Assembly: GCF_014898175.1 (NCBI RefSeq)
Contig: NZ_CP062948.1
Location: 2,418,001 to 2,482,000 of the forward strand
Direction of reading: 5' to 3'
Source of the DNA: Bifidobacterium lemurum
GTDB lineage: Bacteria; Actinomycetota; Actinomycetes; Actinomycetales; Bifidobacteriaceae
Length of the DNA stretch: 64,000 bases
The notes below the pieces were generated by a model. The model saw only the letters and a program-made list of their open reading frames with translations. It had not been told where the DNA came from and did not search any database. Positions 11,407 to 24,563 of the stretch are shown in pieces. Positions within the stretch are counted from its first letter, which is position 1, and each line of letters starts with the position of its first letter. A program made the position numbers and the translations under genes.

Positions 11407-11991
11407 TCACATTCCACGGTCTGCGTTGATGCGGCGGCGGGAGGACTTTTGCGCGGCTTCGGCCCATTGGCGTTGCGCGGGAGTCAGATGCTGTTCGCGT
11501 TCGCCGCCCTGCAACGCGCCGGAGGGGCGCAGCGCATGGCAGATCGCCAACGCCAACGCGTCGGCCGCATCGGCCGGAGTCGGCATCTTCGACAGGTTGA
11601 GGATGCGTGTGACCATGCGCTCCACCTGGATCTTCTCCGCCTGGCCGTTGCCGGTGATCGCCAGCTTCGCCTCGGTGGGCGTATGCAGGGCCACAGGAAT
11701 GCCGCGTTGCGCCGCGGCCAGCATCGCCATGCCGGCCGCCTGCGCGGTGCCGAGCACGGTGTTGCGGTTCGACTGGGCGAACACGCGCTCGATGGACACC
11801 GCGTCGGGCGCGAATCGCTCCATCTTCTCCGCCAGCCCGTTGTACACCGCCAACAATCGCAGATCCTGCGAGATATCCGGCGAGGAACGCACGACGTCGA
11901 CGTGGATAAACGAAAGCCGGCGGTGCGCGCCGGCTTCGATCACGCCGACCCCGCAGCGTGTGAGCCCGGGGTCGACGCCAAGGATGATCAC
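11407..11991 (-). CDS. ruvC: Crossover junction endodeoxyribonuclease RuvC
   Basis: RuvC resolves Holliday junctions by symmetrical nicking. The protein is 194 residues and opens [16 protein letters not shown], in which the first catalytic Asp is residue 7. It has the SIERVFAQ motif with the second acidic residue and [13 protein letters not shown] with the last two. The start is GTG at 11991, five bases after the yebC stop, with GAGGAG over the end of yebC. The C-terminus runs into a hairpin. Confidence 0.97.
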
Positions 11992-17051: not shown

Positions 17052-17091
17052 CTCAGGTGACTGGGCAACCAGTCGACTGAGACGCAGACCC

Positions 17092-17163
17092 GGGCGGTTG
17101 GCGCAGTGGTAGCGCACTTCCCTGACACGGAAGGGGTCACAAGTTCGAATCTTGTATCGCCCA
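17092..17163 (+). tRNA. tRNA-Val (anticodon GAC)
   Basis: The acceptor GGGCGGT pairs with ATCGCCC (one G-T pair), the anticodon stem is CTTCC/GGAAG with loop CTGACAC, and the T-loop is GTTCGAAT. The length is 72 nt. Confidence 0.96.
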
Positions 17164-17470: not shown

Positions 17471-17752
17471 ACGGGCGGCTGCACGCACGTTCGGGCGGTT
17501 TCGTCAAGCTTCGGGCGGTTTTATCAGGTCTCGGGCGGTAGCCGTTTGTGGTGTAGTCATCCCGCGTACGATGAGCATAATCATCAAATCGTTGGAAAAT
17601 AGCCGTTTCTACGAATCCAGCATTCTCATTCCAGCCGTATCGGCTTTAATTCAGCAGGAGAACAAACCGCCCGTAGACCGATGAAACCGCCCAAGTGATA
17701 AGGTAACCGCCCGAATGGGTTGCTGACCGCCCGGACGATAAGGTAACCGCCC
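17471..17752. repeat. Two convergent 20-bp-periodic arrays of CGGGCGGTT
   Basis: The gap 17425-17806 holds no convincing gene. On the plus strand a 9-mer CGGGCGGTT (with variants ending CT and TA) begins at 17472, 17492, 17512 and 17532, exactly 20 bp apart. On the minus strand the same unit occurs five times, with ACCGCCC cores at 17666, 17686, 17706, 17726 and 17746, again exactly 20 bp apart. The 11 bases between units are not conserved. The arrays point toward each other across about 125 bp of lower-GC DNA. The region lies between the 3' ends of the tRNA operon and the minus-strand ABC permease gene. The layout resembles clustered protein-binding iterons; the binding protein is unknown. 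Confidence 0.85.
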
Positions 17753-17806
17753 GTATTGGTGGCCAACAGGGACGCGAGAAAGATGGTTGAAGCGAATTCA
17801 TGACCG

Positions 17807-18868
17807 CTAGCGGGTTTTGAAGTGGGTGAACAGGTCTCGTTCCCGGATGGTCAGCGCGGCGGCCATGGTTCCGGCCCATGCGCCGAAGAGCACCCATAGG
17901 CCTTCCTTGAGTTCGATCATGAACACGTCGGGAGCGCTTGTCATGCCCTGCAGGCGGATCATGACGTACAGCGCGGCGTATGCGCTGGCCCAGCCGATCA
18001 GGACGGGAACCAGATGCTCCACCACCATCTGCAGCACCACGGCCGATTTGCCCGCACCGGCATGCATATTGCCCGATAATTCCAGCTTCCTTCTTCGGCA
18101 GAACGCGGCGGCGGCCAACGCCATCAGCACGCCGGCCGCGGGCACGGCGAATCTGGTCAGACGGGACGAGAACATCCCATACGCATCCATCGTGTCCCCC
18201 AAGGTGTAGTTCACCTGACCGGTCTGGGAATGCGACGGGTCCATGCTGTAGAACACGCTCAGACGCAGCGTGTCGGTCATATCCGAGGACGGCCACACCG
18301 ACGCCCAACATTCGTCGAAGGCACCATACGACGCCACCGGCATCAGCACCGCATAGCCGATGCGGGAGTCGCGCCCGTCCTCGGCCCAGTCGTACACGCC
18401 GGCCACCCGAATCTCACCCTGCGTCGTCTCCAACACCGCGCCCTGCGACACCGCTAGCTTCTCGGCCACCGCTCGCGGCAGCCACACCCCCTGATGGTCG
18501 TCGTTGCCGGCGTCCACCACGTCGAGCAGACCGTCCGTGACCTCATAGATGACGAACCGATTGTCGGGCAGCACGTTCAGGGTCATCTCCCCGGCCTGAC
18601 GCAACGCGCCGGACGCCTCGATGCCGTCTTGCGACGTCAGCTGCGCGCAGGCCCTCCCATCGACGCCATCCTCGTTCTTGATAAGCGTGACGTTCCCTTT
18701 GGCCTCCCGGTATTCGATCGCCTGACTCTCCACGTCGAGTATCTGCCAGACATCCAATCCCGCGCAGCACAACACCAGAAGAAACGACAGCAACACCAGC
18801 GGCACGGCACCGGCCATGCCGGAGGTCATATCCCTCCACGCCTCGCGTATGATCTCTCTCAGCCTCAT
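17807..18868 (-). CDS. ABC transporter permease, FtsX/MacB-like (cassette 1)
   Basis: This 353-residue membrane protein has one N-terminal helix (about residues 20-40), a large extracytoplasmic domain (about 45-240) and three C-terminal helices. That is the layout of MacB/LolE/FtsX-type permeases that move substrates from the outer membrane leaflet rather than across the membrane. It is a clear paralogue of the permease at 21726-22817: both begin MRLR-I-I-E, and both share EVTGGLLD/VIDL-like and AGVFDW/AGVYDW segments before a DGRD motif. It is last of four same-strand genes, four bases after the ATPase gene. The substrate is unknown; lipoprotein release, drug or peptide export, and stress sensing are all possible. 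Confidence 0.8.
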   Translation of the reverse strand: MRLREIIREAWRDMTSGMAGAVPLVLLSFLLVLCCAGLDVWQILDVESQAIEYREAKGNVTLIKNEDGVDGRACAQLTSQDGIEASGALRQAGEMTLNVLPDNRFVIYEVTDGLLDVVDAGNDDHQGVWLPRAVAEKLAVSQGAVLETTQGEIRVAGVYDWAEDGRDSRIGYAVLMPVASYGAFDECWASVWPSSDMTDTLRLSVFYSMDPSHSQTGQVNYTLGDTMDAYGMFSSRLTRFAVPAAGVLMALAAAAFCRRRKLELSGNMHAGAGKSAVVLQMVVEHLVPVLIGWASAYAALYVMIRLQGMTSAPDVFMIELKEGLWVLFGAWAGTMAAALTIRERDLFTHFKTR

Positions 18869-18871
18869 CGC

Positions 18872-19507
18872 TCACTCCGATCTGGCGTACAGGTCAAGGT
18901 CGATGACGCGGTCGCATGCTTCGCGGGTGCGCGGGTCGTGTGTGGCGATGATGACCGCGGCTCCGGAGCGCGCGAGCTGCGACAACGTGGAGTTGACCAA
19001 ATCAGCCGTACGCGTGTCCAACTGCGCGGTCGGCTCGTCCACCAGCAACACGTTTGGCTGCGCGTTGATGGCTCGCACCAGCATCAGCCGCTGCGCCTCA
19101 CCACCCGACAATTCCTGGAACAGACGGTTCTCCAGCGCCGACAGGCCGAAGGAATCCAATATGCTTCTGGCCTGCTCCTCGGCATATGAGCGCGTGTGTC
19201 CGGCCGCGAGCAGCGGATAGGCCGCGATGTCGAGCACCGTGCGCCACGCCGCCCCATACGGGTTCTGGAACACCCAGGAGATCCGGCACGGCTCTCCCCT
19301 GCGCACCACGCCCTCCGTCGGATTCTCCCAACCGGCGATAATCGACAGCATCGTCGATTTGCCGCAGCCCGACCGTCCGCACAACGCCAGTATCTCGCCG
19401 TCGCGCACAGCGAACGACACATGCCGCCACAGGAACGGCGAGCCCGCGAACCGGTGCCCCAGATCGTCGACCTCGACTCCGCGGGTCGCCTCGCCACCGC
19501 CCGCCAT
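18872..19507 (-). CDS. ABC transporter ATP-binding protein (cassette 1)
   Basis: This is a 211-residue ATPase of the MacB/LolD type. It has Walker A GRSGCGKST (44-52), a Q-loop in WVFQNPYG, signature LSGGEAQR, Walker B VLLVDEP followed by TAQLDTRTAD, and the H-loop ATHD. It pairs with the permease at 17807-18868. Its start shares its last base with the stop of the adaptor gene. Paralogue: 22814-23458. Confidence 0.92.
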   Translation of the reverse strand: MAGGGEATRGVEVDDLGHRFAGSPFLWRHVSFAVRDGEILALCGRSGCGKSTMLSIIAGWENPTEGVVRRGEPCRISWVFQNPYGAAWRTVLDIAAYPLLAAGHTRSYAEEQARSILDSFGLSALENRLFQELSGGEAQRLMLVRAINAQPNVLLVDEPTAQLDTRTADLVNSTLSQLARSGAAVIIATHDPRTREACDRVIDLDLYARSE

Positions 19508-20658
19508 CAGGTTTCCTCCCCGGCGGCGTCGCCCTTGTCATCCGTCTCCCCCACCGTCGCGGGACAGGTGATGTCGGAGCTCCCGTCGGAAACATCCACC
19601 GACCGCAGTCCGGACGCATCGGAACCGTCCAATAGTCCGACCATCGCATATCCGTTCTGCGAACCGTACAGCCGGACGGGTACCGCCTCGCCGTCATGCC
19701 TGACGCAACCGACCCCGTCGAGAATCGAGAACACCGAACCTGCGGGCACCTTCAACGCCGTTATCGGCTCTTTGAGTCGTATGGTCGCATCCAGACCCGA
19801 ACGCTGCCCTTCGTCCGTCATCAGCCATACGGCGAACTGCGAAGTCCCCTCGACCTTGTCGAGGAACGCCTCGTCCACAATCCGACCGTCCTCAGGCAGA
19901 GCGGTCTCCTCCCCCGCGATCGTGATGACACGCTCCCCCTGCGCCAGCGTGTCCGGCAAGGTGACGTCGATGGATTGGATGGACGATGCCATCACGCCGA
20001 TCTCCTGCGGCGCGGCCTGGCCCCGGACCAGCATGCAATCCTCCAACACCACGGACTGCCGCGGCAACCACAGCACGCCCTGCAACGACACCACACCGGT
20101 CTGTTCCAGCCCGTGGGCCTCCTGCAACGCGGCCACCGCCCACCACAGCGAGGAATCGAACACGTCGTGCGACGCGCCGTCCACCTGCGCGGCATAGCCC
20201 AGACGGACCAATTCGTCACGCAGCGCGCCGACGTCCCCGCCGGACATGCCGGCCTGCAGATCGCGGTACAAGGGCACCTCGGTGTACAAGGCGACCACCG
20301 GCGTTCCATCGACCGCGAACGGGGACGACCCCGATTCGATCGTCGATCCATCGCCCACGGAAAGCGACGTCACCGTGCCGCCGCCCTGCCAGGCAAGACT
20401 CTGTCCCTGATTCACTTGGGGAACGGCCACGACCGTCCGCTCGTCATCGAACGACTCCTCCACAACGGGCACGCTCCCCGAATCAGACGGCGCGCGAAGC
20501 GCGTCCGGCACGGGAGACGGAACCAGCGCATAACCGACCGCCAGTCCGACGACCAGACACGCCACGCATAACAACGCCAGAAACGCCGGGCGATTCCGAA
20601 CCCGGAGCCGCGAATCCCCACCGAACTTTGCGGACCGTCCTTCTTTCTTCCCCACCAT
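19507..20658 (-). CDS. Membrane-anchored adaptor with peptidoglycan-binding domain (cassette 1)
   Basis: This 383-residue protein has a basic N-terminus and one membrane helix (about 25-46). Its extracytoplasmic part contains a peptidoglycan-binding-like fold: PLYRDLQAGMSGGDVGALRD through LRDELVRLGY, about 118-180. It is followed by beta-rich segments like HlyD/MacA membrane-fusion adaptors. Actinobacteria often encode such proteins beside MacB-type transporters, where they are thought to link the permease to the wall. It sits between the lipoprotein gene and the ATPase gene. The acidic C-terminal tail (GETDDKGDAAGEET) is variable. Paralogue: 23469-24563, with the same PLYRDL motif and the same N-box-like VPAG(S/A)VF-I-DG(V/I)GCV segment. 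Confidence 0.75.
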   Translation of the reverse strand: MVGKKEGRSAKFGGDSRLRVRNRPAFLALLCVACLVVGLAVGYALVPSPVPDALRAPSDSGSVPVVEESFDDERTVVAVPQVNQGQSLAWQGGGTVTSLSVGDGSTIESGSSPFAVDGTPVVALYTEVPLYRDLQAGMSGGDVGALRDELVRLGYAAQVDGASHDVFDSSLWWAVAALQEAHGLEQTGVVSLQGVLWLPRQSVVLEDCMLVRGQAAPQEIGVMASSIQSIDVTLPDTLAQGERVITIAGEETALPEDGRIVDEAFLDKVEGTSQFAVWLMTDEGQRSGLDATIRLKEPITALKVPAGSVFSILDGVGCVRHDGEAVPVRLYGSQNGYAMVGLLDGSDASGLRSVDVSDGSSDITCPATVGETDDKGDAAGEET

Positions 20659-21725: not shown

Positions 21726-22817
21726 TCACCGGTGTTTGAAGAGGCGGAAGAGTTGGGATTCGCGGATGGTCAGGCCGGTGGCGAATACGGCGGCGACCGT
21801 GCCGGCGAGCAACGCCAGCGGCATGCGTATGGATCCCATCAGCACCGTGGCGGTGTCGGCGGGTACGGCGCGCGCGCAGTAGGCGGTGAGTAGCGCGCAT
21901 GAGCATATGTTGCCCGCCCCGCACCAGATCAGGGTTTCGGTGAGCATGCCGAGCAGTTGCGCGCCTTTGAATTGCCCCGAATGCAAAGCGCCGGCGTATT
22001 CGAGCCGTCGGCGTCTCACGGCCACGACGCCGATCAGCATGCCGACCGCCAATGCGAGGTAGGGCATGATCCGGGTTATGCGCGTTAGGTAGGTCGCTTG
22101 AGCGTCGTAATGCGTGTCGAAGCCTTTGTTGAGCCGGGTCACGCCGGGCTGCGACCGCGTGCCGTCGGACGCGGTGGCGGAGCCGGCCGTGGTGTACAGC
22201 AGCGTGTCCAGTCCGTCGCTTGTCGGCCATTGTTTGGCCCAGCATTCCTGATAGTCGCCGTCGGACGCGGAGGTGGGGATGACGAGCGCGTAGGCGAAAC
22301 GGGTGTCGCGTCCGTCGTTGGGCCAGTCGAACACTCCCGCGATGGAGATATCCCCTTGGTCGGTTTGGATCCGGCTGCCGACCGTCAGCCCGAAGTCCTG
22401 CGCCACTTCCCGGGACACCCACGCGCCGGACGTGTCGGATCGCATGCCGGTGGTTCCCGAGGCGAGCAGGTCGATGACGCCGCCGGTCACCTCGTAGGAG
22501 CCCAGGGTTTTGCCAGGCGTGGCGAGAAACTCGACTTCGGATCCATCGCGCATCGCGCCGGATATCGACGGCCCTCCCCCGGCCTCGGACAGCCGTTCGC
22601 AGGCCACGCCGTCGACAACACCGCCGACGATGGTGGCGACGTCCGCGTTGGCGCGGATGCGGGTTACGGCCTCGTTCTCCAACGCGACCACGGACACGGC
22701 TTCCGCCCCGCCCAGCAGAGCCCCCGCCAATGCCACCGCGAGCATGAGCGCGAACGCGCGTGAGGCGCCGCACGAGATGTTACGCAGGCTTTCCGAGATG
22801 ATGGAACGCAATCTCAT
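21726..22817 (-). CDS. ABC transporter permease, FtsX/MacB-like (cassette 2)
   Basis: This 363-residue permease has the same one-plus-three helix layout as its paralogue at 17807-18868, with a large extracytoplasmic domain between about residues 45 and 250. The family segment VAGDGS-like turns, SIAGVFDWPNDGRDTRF and TIRESQLFRLF at the end match TIRERDLFTHF in cassette 1. The start overlaps the ATPase stop by four bases. The stop lies about 75 nt before the operator of cassette 1, so read-through into cassette 1 is possible. Confidence 0.8.
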   Translation of the reverse strand: MRLRSIISESLRNISCGASRAFALMLAVALAGALLGGAEAVSVVALENEAVTRIRANADVATIVGGVVDGVACERLSEAGGGPSISGAMRDGSEVEFLATPGKTLGSYEVTGGVIDLLASGTTGMRSDTSGAWVSREVAQDFGLTVGSRIQTDQGDISIAGVFDWPNDGRDTRFAYALVIPTSASDGDYQECWAKQWPTSDGLDTLLYTTAGSATASDGTRSQPGVTRLNKGFDTHYDAQATYLTRITRIMPYLALAVGMLIGVVAVRRRRLEYAGALHSGQFKGAQLLGMLTETLIWCGAGNICSCALLTAYCARAVPADTATVLMGSIRMPLALLAGTVAAVFATGLTIRESQLFRLFKHR

Positions 22818-23458
22818 AGCCGCTCGCCCCCTCCGTCGGCGTCCGCCGGCGCGTAGTCGGCCAAGTCGATCACCCGGTCGCAGGCGTCGCGCGTGTCCGG
22901 GTCATGCGTGGCGATCACGACGATCATGCCCTGTCCGGCGAGCCGTCCCAACACGTGGCTGACCGAATGCGCGGTGCGCGTGTCCAACTGCGCGGTCGGC
23001 TCGTCCACCAACAGCAGGTCCGGCCGTGAGCACACCGCACGGGCCAGCATCAGCCGTTGCGCCTCGCCGCCCGACAGGTCGGAGAACCGGCGGCCGGCCG
23101 CGTACCCCAAGTCGAACAGGCCCATCGTCTCCAACGCCCGCGGCTCGGCCTCGCGGCGCGTCAGGCCCTTGGCCAGCAGCGGGAACACGACATGGTCCAA
23201 CGCGCTGCGCTCGGCCACCCCGTACGGGTTCTGGAACACCCAGCCGACGCGTTCGATGTTCTCCCGCTCCACATGGCCCGCATACGGTTTCTCCCATCCC
23301 GCCAGAATCGACAGCAGTGTGCTTTTGCCCGAACCGCTCGGCCCGCACACGGCGACCGTCTCGCCGGGCACGAAAGCGGCATCCAACCGTTCGAACAGCA
23401 CGTCGGTGCCCAGGAACCGGTGCGCCAAACCGACGGCGCGCACGCAAGCCTCAGCCAT
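22814..23458 (-). CDS. ABC transporter ATP-binding protein (cassette 2)
   Basis: This 214-residue MacB/LolD-type ATPase has Walker A GPSGSGKST (39-47), Q-loop WVFQNPYG, signature LSGGEAQR, Walker B LLLVDEP with TAQLDTRTAH, and H-loop ATHD. It is close to the cassette 1 ATPase over its whole length. It lies 10 nt after the adaptor gene and overlaps the permease gene by 4 nt (ATGA). Confidence 0.92.
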   Translation of the reverse strand: MAEACVRAVGLAHRFLGTDVLFERLDAAFVPGETVAVCGPSGSGKSTLLSILAGWEKPYAGHVERENIERVGWVFQNPYGVAERSALDHVVFPLLAKGLTRREAEPRALETMGLFDLGYAAGRRFSDLSGGEAQRLMLARAVCSRPDLLLVDEPTAQLDTRTAHSVSHVLGRLAGQGMIVVIATHDPDTRDACDRVIDLADYAPADADGGGERL

Positions 23459-23468
23459 GCCCGTCTCC

Positions 23469-24563
23469 CTACCCGCAGGTCAGGCCGTCGAGCCGGCTGC
23501 CCAACAGCACGCTGGAGATGTCGCCGGGAGCCATATCCTCAGGAACGACCAGGCTCACACCCAACTCGCCGCCGATGATCGACACCCTCACCGGCTCTCC
23601 TTCGGAATCGCCGTCGGCGGGGGCGACGCATCCGATTCCGTCCGCGATGCCGAACACCGCGCCCGCCGGCACGCGCAACACCTCGACCGGCTCGGCCAAC
23701 GACAGCGTGCCATCAAGACCGACCGCCAACTGATCCCCGTCCAACGACGCGATTTCGGGAACGGCCGCGACCTGCGAGAGGAATCCCGCGTCCGTGATCT
23801 CGGTCGCCCCGGCCGGCAGCGTCACGCTCACGCCGGCCACGGTGAGCGCGCGGTCCCGCTCGGACGCCTGGCCGCCTTTGATCGAAAGCCGGGTCATCGC
23901 GCCCGGCACCACGCCCACGGCGGTTCCGGCCGTGACCTGCGCGCCCTGGACCGCCGTCCACGACCCCACCGCCACGGATTCCTGCGGGATCCACAACGTG
24001 TCCGCCAAAGACAGGGACCCATCCGACTCGTTGCCGTTGTCGACCATCAACTGCCGCCACCCGTCGGACGTGGCCCAGGAGAACACGTCGGACTCCGGCG
24101 CGCTGTTGTATCCCAAACGGTTCAGCTCGTTGTTCAACGCCAGCACATCCTGCCCGCGGTCGCCGGTCCTCAGATCGCGGTACAGGGGCGTGGCCGTGGC
24201 CAACGCCACCACGGAACGCTCGCCCACCCGCATCACGCCACGGCCGGACGAAAGCCCCTGCGCCGACCAGTCCGCCGTCACCAGGCCCGACGTGTTCGAC
24301 AACAGGTCGCGCGCCTGCGACATCGACGGCACCAACGTCACCTGCTGACCGCCCGCATACTCCTGCACACTCGCGGGAGCGCTCGTCGTCTCGGCGGGCG
24401 CATCCAACAACGCGGGCGCCCGATCCGGCAACCACAACGCGCACGCGCCCACCGACACACACGCCGCAATCACCACCGTGACCAACATCCACGTCCACGA
24501 ACCAACCCGACGACCCGCCACGGGATGATCCGCGGAACCAGCCCCACGATTCCGCCGGCTCAC
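23469..24563 (-). CDS. Membrane-anchored adaptor with peptidoglycan-binding-like domain (cassette 2)
   Basis: This 364-residue protein has one N-terminal helix (about 22-45). The peptidoglycan-binding-like region, PLYRDLRTGDRGQDVLALNN through NELNRLGY, is at about 135-195. Beta-rich adaptor segments follow, with the VPAGAVFGIADGIGCV signature shared with cassette 1. It ends in a short Cys-containing terminus (DGLTCG), where cassette 1 has DITCPATV. The start overlaps the lipoprotein stop as ATGA. It probably bridges the permease to the cell wall or to the lipoprotein; this is inference. Confidence 0.75.
   Translation of the reverse strand: MSRRNRGAGSADHPVAGRRVGSWTWMLVTVVIAACVSVGACALWLPDRAPALLDAPAETTSAPASVQEYAGGQQVTLVPSMSQARDLLSNTSGLVTADWSAQGLSSGRGVMRVGERSVVALATATPLYRDLRTGDRGQDVLALNNELNRLGYNSAPESDVFSWATSDGWRQLMVDNGNESDGSLSLADTLWIPQESVAVGSWTAVQGAQVTAGTAVGVVPGAMTRLSIKGGQASERDRALTVAGVSVTLPAGATEITDAGFLSQVAAVPEIASLDGDQLAVGLDGTLSLAEPVEVLRVPAGAVFGIADGIGCVAPADGDSEGEPVRVSIIGGELGVSLVVPEDMAPGDISSVLLGSRLDGLTCG

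Follow-up and report, generated by a model that had tools for sequence, protein, structure and literature searches.

Facing word arrays around a palindromic core in Bifidobacterium lemurum and their recurrence as an apparently undescribed DNA site linked to a nuclease-like gene family

What kind of DNA site is formed where two arrays of a short repeated word face one another between two transcription units? The question is raised by positions 17,471 to 17,752 of a 64,000-nucleotide stretch of the Bifidobacterium lemurum genome (contig NZ_CP062948.1, positions 2,418,001 to 2,482,000; hereafter the window), where an original prediction made from the letters alone had noticed the repeats. We report that these facing repeats are one of seven copies, in this genome, of an apparently undescribed kind of DNA site, and that chances are about even that the window site is the gene-less form ("solo" site) of a probably mobile module specific to Bifidobacterium, whose gene-bearing form carries a gene for an AbiEi-like protein with a nuclease fold. 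The architecture, its recurrence, the helical phasing, the presence or absence of sites between close species and the link between gene and word can all be read from the sequences compared; mobility by cleavage is inferred from them.

Arrays and core in the window and in two sister species

The left array consists of four words, CGGGCGGY, on the plus strand (17472-17479, 17492-17499, 17512-17519 and 17532-17539) and the right array of five words on the minus strand, which read RCCGCCCR on the plus strand and begin at 17666, 17686, 17706, 17726 and 17746 (17666..17753). All steps are 20 base pairs (bp), the words of both arrays face inwards, and the gap between the arrays is 126 bp. The plus units read CGGGCGG(C/T) and the minus units ACCGCCC(G/A), with two imperfect units in the window (plus unit 1 ends in C and minus unit 2 in A). 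Two-unit matches with up to two mismatches number seven against 0.26 expected, a count reached in none of 100 dinucleotide shuffles, and across the whole genome (G000; one contig of 2,965,103 bases; G and L numbers are our handles for genomes and loci) there are 37 exact two-unit matches and none to the reversed pattern. The predicted four plus and five minus units with their 20-bp step and facing orientation are therefore borne out, and so is their place: the arrays sit between the end of a tRNA-Gly gene (17394) and the end of the minus-strand open reading frame (ORF) 17807-18868, that is, in a gap between two transcription ends.

The prediction overlooked two things, the six sister sites and a degenerate core. 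Midway in each array pair lies a palindrome of approximately 30 bp with the half-site CAARAAYGKYGGAA; in the window it reads CATCAAATCGTTGGAAAATAGCCGTTTCTACG (17582..17613, strandless), with its dyad between 17597 and 17598; measured from there, the innermost word has its outer end at 75 bp on the right and at 65 bp on the left. The seven sites lie at about 0.266, 1.397, 1.540, 1.788, 2.007, 2.248 and 2.4355 Mb, all with the left array on the plus strand and the right array on the minus strand. Among the roles proposed at the outset, the target of an integrated element beside tRNA genes comes closest to our present reading, but the tRNA neighbourhood is not essential to it: ARAGORN places a tRNA within 0.4 kb at three of the seven sites. 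As to the contig itself, matches at 11959 and 15996 (contig C1) reappear at 2950414 and 2954451 (offset 2938455), so that its ends may overlap by approximately 26.6 kb (about 1-26600 and the end) and the assembly is perhaps not circularised.

At least four sites with the same word are present in the sister species G052. The exact two-unit match occurs in nine of 112 genus genomes, while arrays are restricted to G000 and G052; the remaining seven genomes hold one or two matches each, 8 in total, which we regard as chance level because single matches to the reversed control likewise turn up in seven genomes. For four of the seven G000 sites, that in the window among them, G052 lacks a counterpart, and one site of G052 occupies a place where G000 has other genes. 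At three orthologous sites the identities are 0.90, 1.0 and 0.93 for the core, 0.77, 0.87 and 0.90 for the words (inflated, as the alignment tends to anchor on them), 0.54, 0.57 and 0.73 for the spacers, and 0.44 (L072, poorly aligned), 0.81 and 0.95 for the flanks; hence the spacers evolve faster than well-aligned flanks, and words and core do not. Within one site, spacer sequences of one arm reappear inverted in the other, which recombination or template switching between the arms would be expected to produce.

Flanking duplications of approximately 58 bp at the 1.788-Mb site (L071) and of 12 bp at a site in G103 (L238) correspond to single copies in G052 and G035, respectively, the 12-bp repeat alone standing at about the 97th percentile of its null; at L070 a target duplication is at most 7 bp. 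A direction of change is suggested only at sites with such duplications. G052 also has a second dispersed repeat of about 110 bp (L077:5498, L295:3015, L347:999 and L302:14191) that is bounded on each side by AGTTTGGTGTG words and contains a half-core-like stretch, and the same word flanks the fuller cores L222 and L223.

A constant core with changing words

Searched with up to three mismatches, the core pattern is found in 92 of the 112 genus genomes with zero matches to its reversed control, in one of five genomes from other genera of the family, and in one of 138 sampled genomes from other families of the order. The original prediction had named confinement to one strain, with spacing not conserved in relatives, as the finding that would count against it; instead two species share the word, and the architecture is found again across the genus. 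In other species the same core is flanked by different words: GGGAYGCAAYYGCA in G107 and G021, GGGAGTTTA in G035 and G103, GTGGGACAACA in G104, ACCGTGGCA in G036, TCACGCGACG and ATGATGTAGGGA in G005, ATGATGCGGTAA, GTTGTGTGGCA and GTCTCCAAA in G114, and ACACCTACGGA in G124. For the G107 word, 17 of 18 exact matches fall within six clusters; allowing one mismatch gives 19 matches on one strand and 22 on the other (control, 1 and 0), and about ten of these matches are isolated. Some cores stand without arrays, beside tRNA genes and in some promoters. Solo cores with no obvious arrays were noted in several species at L201, L217 and L241; L229, L235 and L277; and L263 and L276, with FTR1 iron permease, apparently cysS, and rmlC-like genes downstream.

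The geometry is constant within each family of sites, either direct steps of 19-20 bp or inverted pairs every ~51 bp. In the G000/G052 family, 71 of 96 within-arm steps are 20 bp and 12 are 21 bp, and in 17 of 22 arms the innermost word has its outer end 64 or 65 bp away from the dyad; the others measure 75 (two arms), 53, 43, and 84 where the inner word is mutated, and four of the deviating distances differ from 64 by 1.05, 1.05, 1.05 and 2.0 turns of 10.5 bp. The inner edges in G107/G021 lie mostly at 27, 37-38 or 48 bp (the inner word was not recognised in L352 and L356). Phased distances of this kind would be needed if a protein on the core and another on the array were to touch on one face of the DNA. 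The earlier proposal of cooperative binding, based on fixed spacing and variable spacers, is well supported by these mostly helical-turn steps and by words and core that outlast the spacers, and the case that the site is a binding platform is strong. What may be another protein-specific array system was seen at AAA_14/DUF4143 ATPase loci (L338, L339, L341, L342, L346 and L350), which often have three or more 10-bp direct repeats of locus-specific sequence at steps of 23-46 bp.

A gene family beside and between the sites

Five close site pairs were read, and those in G107, G021, G020 and G026 enclose a gene of one family. The two sites of each pair are direct repeats: 200 bp at 81.5% identity in G107, at least 137 bp at 85% in G021, 142 bp at 96.5% in G020 and 247 bp at 83% in G026; in G107 and G020 the repeat ends and the outermost words are at most about 10 bp apart. 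The family combines an N-terminal AbiEi-like part with an I-Bth0305I/Vsr-like (EDxHD) nuclease fold, the fold and its conserved motif being present in the Bifidobacterium cebidarum-type family, and the motif residues are nearly invariant across 91 homologues. The pair in G026 (L312:7383-8917) also encloses what appears, from translations only, to be a hipBA-type pair (412 amino acids and a 97-amino-acid helix-turn-helix protein).

A profile built from the four enclosed proteins gave 51 matches in 14 hand-chosen genomes, 30 of which were fetched and scanned. A core scoring at least 17 lies within 1.5 kb of 10 of the 13 best matches (E up to 2.5e-90) and of none of the 17 weaker matches; with the three seed loci removed the comparison is 7/10 versus 0/17 (P = 1.4e-4), and for cores scoring 20 or more 5/10 versus 0/17 (P = 0.003). 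Not counted among these 13 and 17 are the genes of G000 and G052 that adjoin L069 and L076. They came from the same profile search and lie approximately 0.6-0.7 kb from the 1.397-Mb site and its counterpart; this site, ~0.6 kb from the G000 member, is the most regular in G000.

In each of the four genomes that this comparison covered, namely G104, G114 (with two genes and two words), G036 and G005, the words of the gene-side sites also occur dispersed elsewhere in the genome. A reciprocal-best protein pair, G114.C29 and G036.C9, has GTCTCCA in common at matching positions, and word likeness seems to follow protein likeness for G104/G107 (GGGA..CAAC) and G036.C33/G114.C4 (GTGGCA), the words being short; G020.C58 and G005.C24, with no usable open frame, were omitted from the protein comparison. 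In L432 (G005) the words are not arranged around the core. We consider the evidence for a protein-word pairing good but post hoc. No strain pair was found that differs by the gene at one place; site-gene-site arrangements and solo sites with the same word do exist.

Weighing the explanations

In the explanation that we favour, the gene-bearing form would have an AbiEi-like/EDxHD gene beside, or between two direct copies of, a core-plus-phased-array element. The protein, or a complex containing it, would bind the words cooperatively on one DNA face and so be placed over the core; a cut or nick there and its repair from a second copy would carry the gene into solo sites (homing), and the gene would be lost again, with a solo site left behind as in the window, when flanking copies recombine. 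Repeated break and repair would bring rapid change of spacers and unit number. Cleavage is the weakest step, since a chromosome with seven targets would need to survive it, and the protein may instead have been domesticated for binding, or may act as a regulator whose further sites are decoys. More tentatively, the module may represent a new class of chromosomal selfish element, in which a nuclease gene carries its own phased-array target as direct terminal repeats, with multi-copy solo targets, and protein and word diversify together around a fixed core. If so, each lineage would carry its own lock and key, protein and word, around a constant core. Should the favoured explanation hold, "DUF559" genes in a major gut genus would gain a DNA target readable from sequence, and many natural protein-word pairs would become available for learning how a protein reads DNA; the sites would also be a bacterial example of binding arrays that change fast and in concert while the core stays the same, and possibly a cut-and-repair driver of bifidobacterial genome change.

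Several observations weigh against the homing module. The window core scores 15.3 and is the sole match of at least 14 inside the window (shuffled sequence gives none with the same matrix), but three matches of 15.0, 16.2 and 17.2 in the other 384 kb (G052 and G000 stretches) put this score at background, and the remaining six G000 sites all reach at least 22.4; because the background holds equal scores, it was the location between the two arrays, together with the sister sites, that identified the window core. Twenty of the 112 genus genomes gave no core match, the G107-type arm L353 (+45) departs from the helical grid, and site pairs in G124 (1.7 kb) and G103 (2.6 kb) enclose no family gene. 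In the profile search the scan covered 30 of the 51 matches, the 14 genomes were hand-picked, and the score cut and the split near E 1e-90 were set post hoc. G000 has four family matches, of which the site-adjacent one is the weakest (E 4.6e-27), as is the G052 member beside the 1.397-Mb counterpart in its own genome. The site-adjacent G000 protein matches DUF559 only weakly (E 0.034), reads SG in place of the family DG and is divergent, with 30-33% identity to its four best matches among the proteins compared. For the G020 protein the nearest match is a G000 gene (44%) that has no core in its vicinity. Duplication lengths vary between the three sites given above and there are few clear junctions. 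Finally, the flanks at L068 (0.95) are at least as well conserved as the words (0.90) and the core (0.93), so that selection is demonstrated relative to the spacers only.

An unlikely alternative is a structural site that serves the host: a phased nucleoprotein block, placed between transcription units, would halt transcription or replication forks or tether the chromosome, and its fast-changing protein would have been domesticated. Words and core outlasting spacers at orthologous sites would fit this, as would the orthologous sites L068/L221 and L072/L074, which have no adjoining family match in the 51-match list. Both neighbours could be resolved at 38 of 80 sites, and 15 of these lie in convergent, 20 in tandem and 3 in divergent gaps, compared to 14, 78 and 29 background gaps of at least 200 bp (convergent versus rest, P = 3e-4). 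Against the structural site, neighbours at the other 42 sites are unresolved (40) or overlap the site (two inside predicted genes), the gene calls being from codon statistics only; four of the seven sites lack a counterpart in the sister species; and the word is wholly different in the next relative, G124 (ThrS 96%; no exact two-unit match). The nucleoid anchor, iteron and partition site suggested originally found no positive support: in a Pfam scan of 141 of 163 flanking ORFs the families listed (25 of 97) are those of varied ordinary genes, and no replication initiator gene is among them.

Less likely still are autoregulatory operators of an AbiEi-type regulator, with the dispersed sites as decoys or a small regulon and the nuclease domain secondary: divergent promoter gaps rarely hold sites (3/38), sites lie on both sides of the gene in G107, G021, G020 and G026, and the nuclease motif is nearly invariant. 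Attachment-like sites of a tyrosine recombinase, with the palindrome as crossover core and the words as integrase arm sites, are very improbable, for although the core has a 4-6-bp middle, and core and repeats occur near integrase genes of tRNA-Ser elements in G117 and G024 and near an apparent integrase start at L202 and probably L320, Phage_int_SAM_3 is found in just 2 of the 141 flanking ORFs (among the families listed), the G117 repeats on both sides run in the same direction, and no integrase was seen to track the word.

Known systems share parts of the homing module. One of the closest is the AbiEi antitoxin (6y8q). EDxHD enzymes occur mainly in phages according to a review; compared with the EDxHD homing endonuclease I-Bth0305I and the Vsr fold, the present genes are chromosomal, lie beside or between multi-copy arrays and have an AbiEi-like N-terminal part. 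Like REPIN/MITE-type repeats, the sites are short, intergenic and multi-copy, and, as for MITE/DDE elements, they are dispersed and vary in presence between close species; they differ in target duplications apparently of several lengths, a conserved middle with changing words, phased arrays and no identified transposase. The mobile integrase cassettes of B. longum, three contiguous integrases, have a palindrome and an inverted repeat containing repeated words (PMC2430713); palindrome and repeated words are thus common to both, but the sequences are others and no integrase trios are among the neighbour families listed. PMC3943268, PMC7319586 and PMC6083498 were also consulted, and our literature search found no paper describing such sites in its title or the start of its abstract.

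Some minor observations concern elements and genes near such sites. In G117 (L309:9275 and 14665) and G024 (L316:8971 and 15251) the core and ACACTTTTACAC-type repeats lie near both ends of the integrase-carrying tRNA-Ser elements. Within the window, the 5' end of the tRNA-Val (GAC) gene at 17091-17100 reads CGGGCGGTTG, which equals the array word, a single copy and probably a coincidence. Also in the window, 17807-20658 and 21726-24563 on the minus strand hold two consecutive similar three-gene sets, each with a permease-like, an ABC-ATPase-like and a secreted or anchored protein as judged from translations only, and probably represent a tandem duplication.
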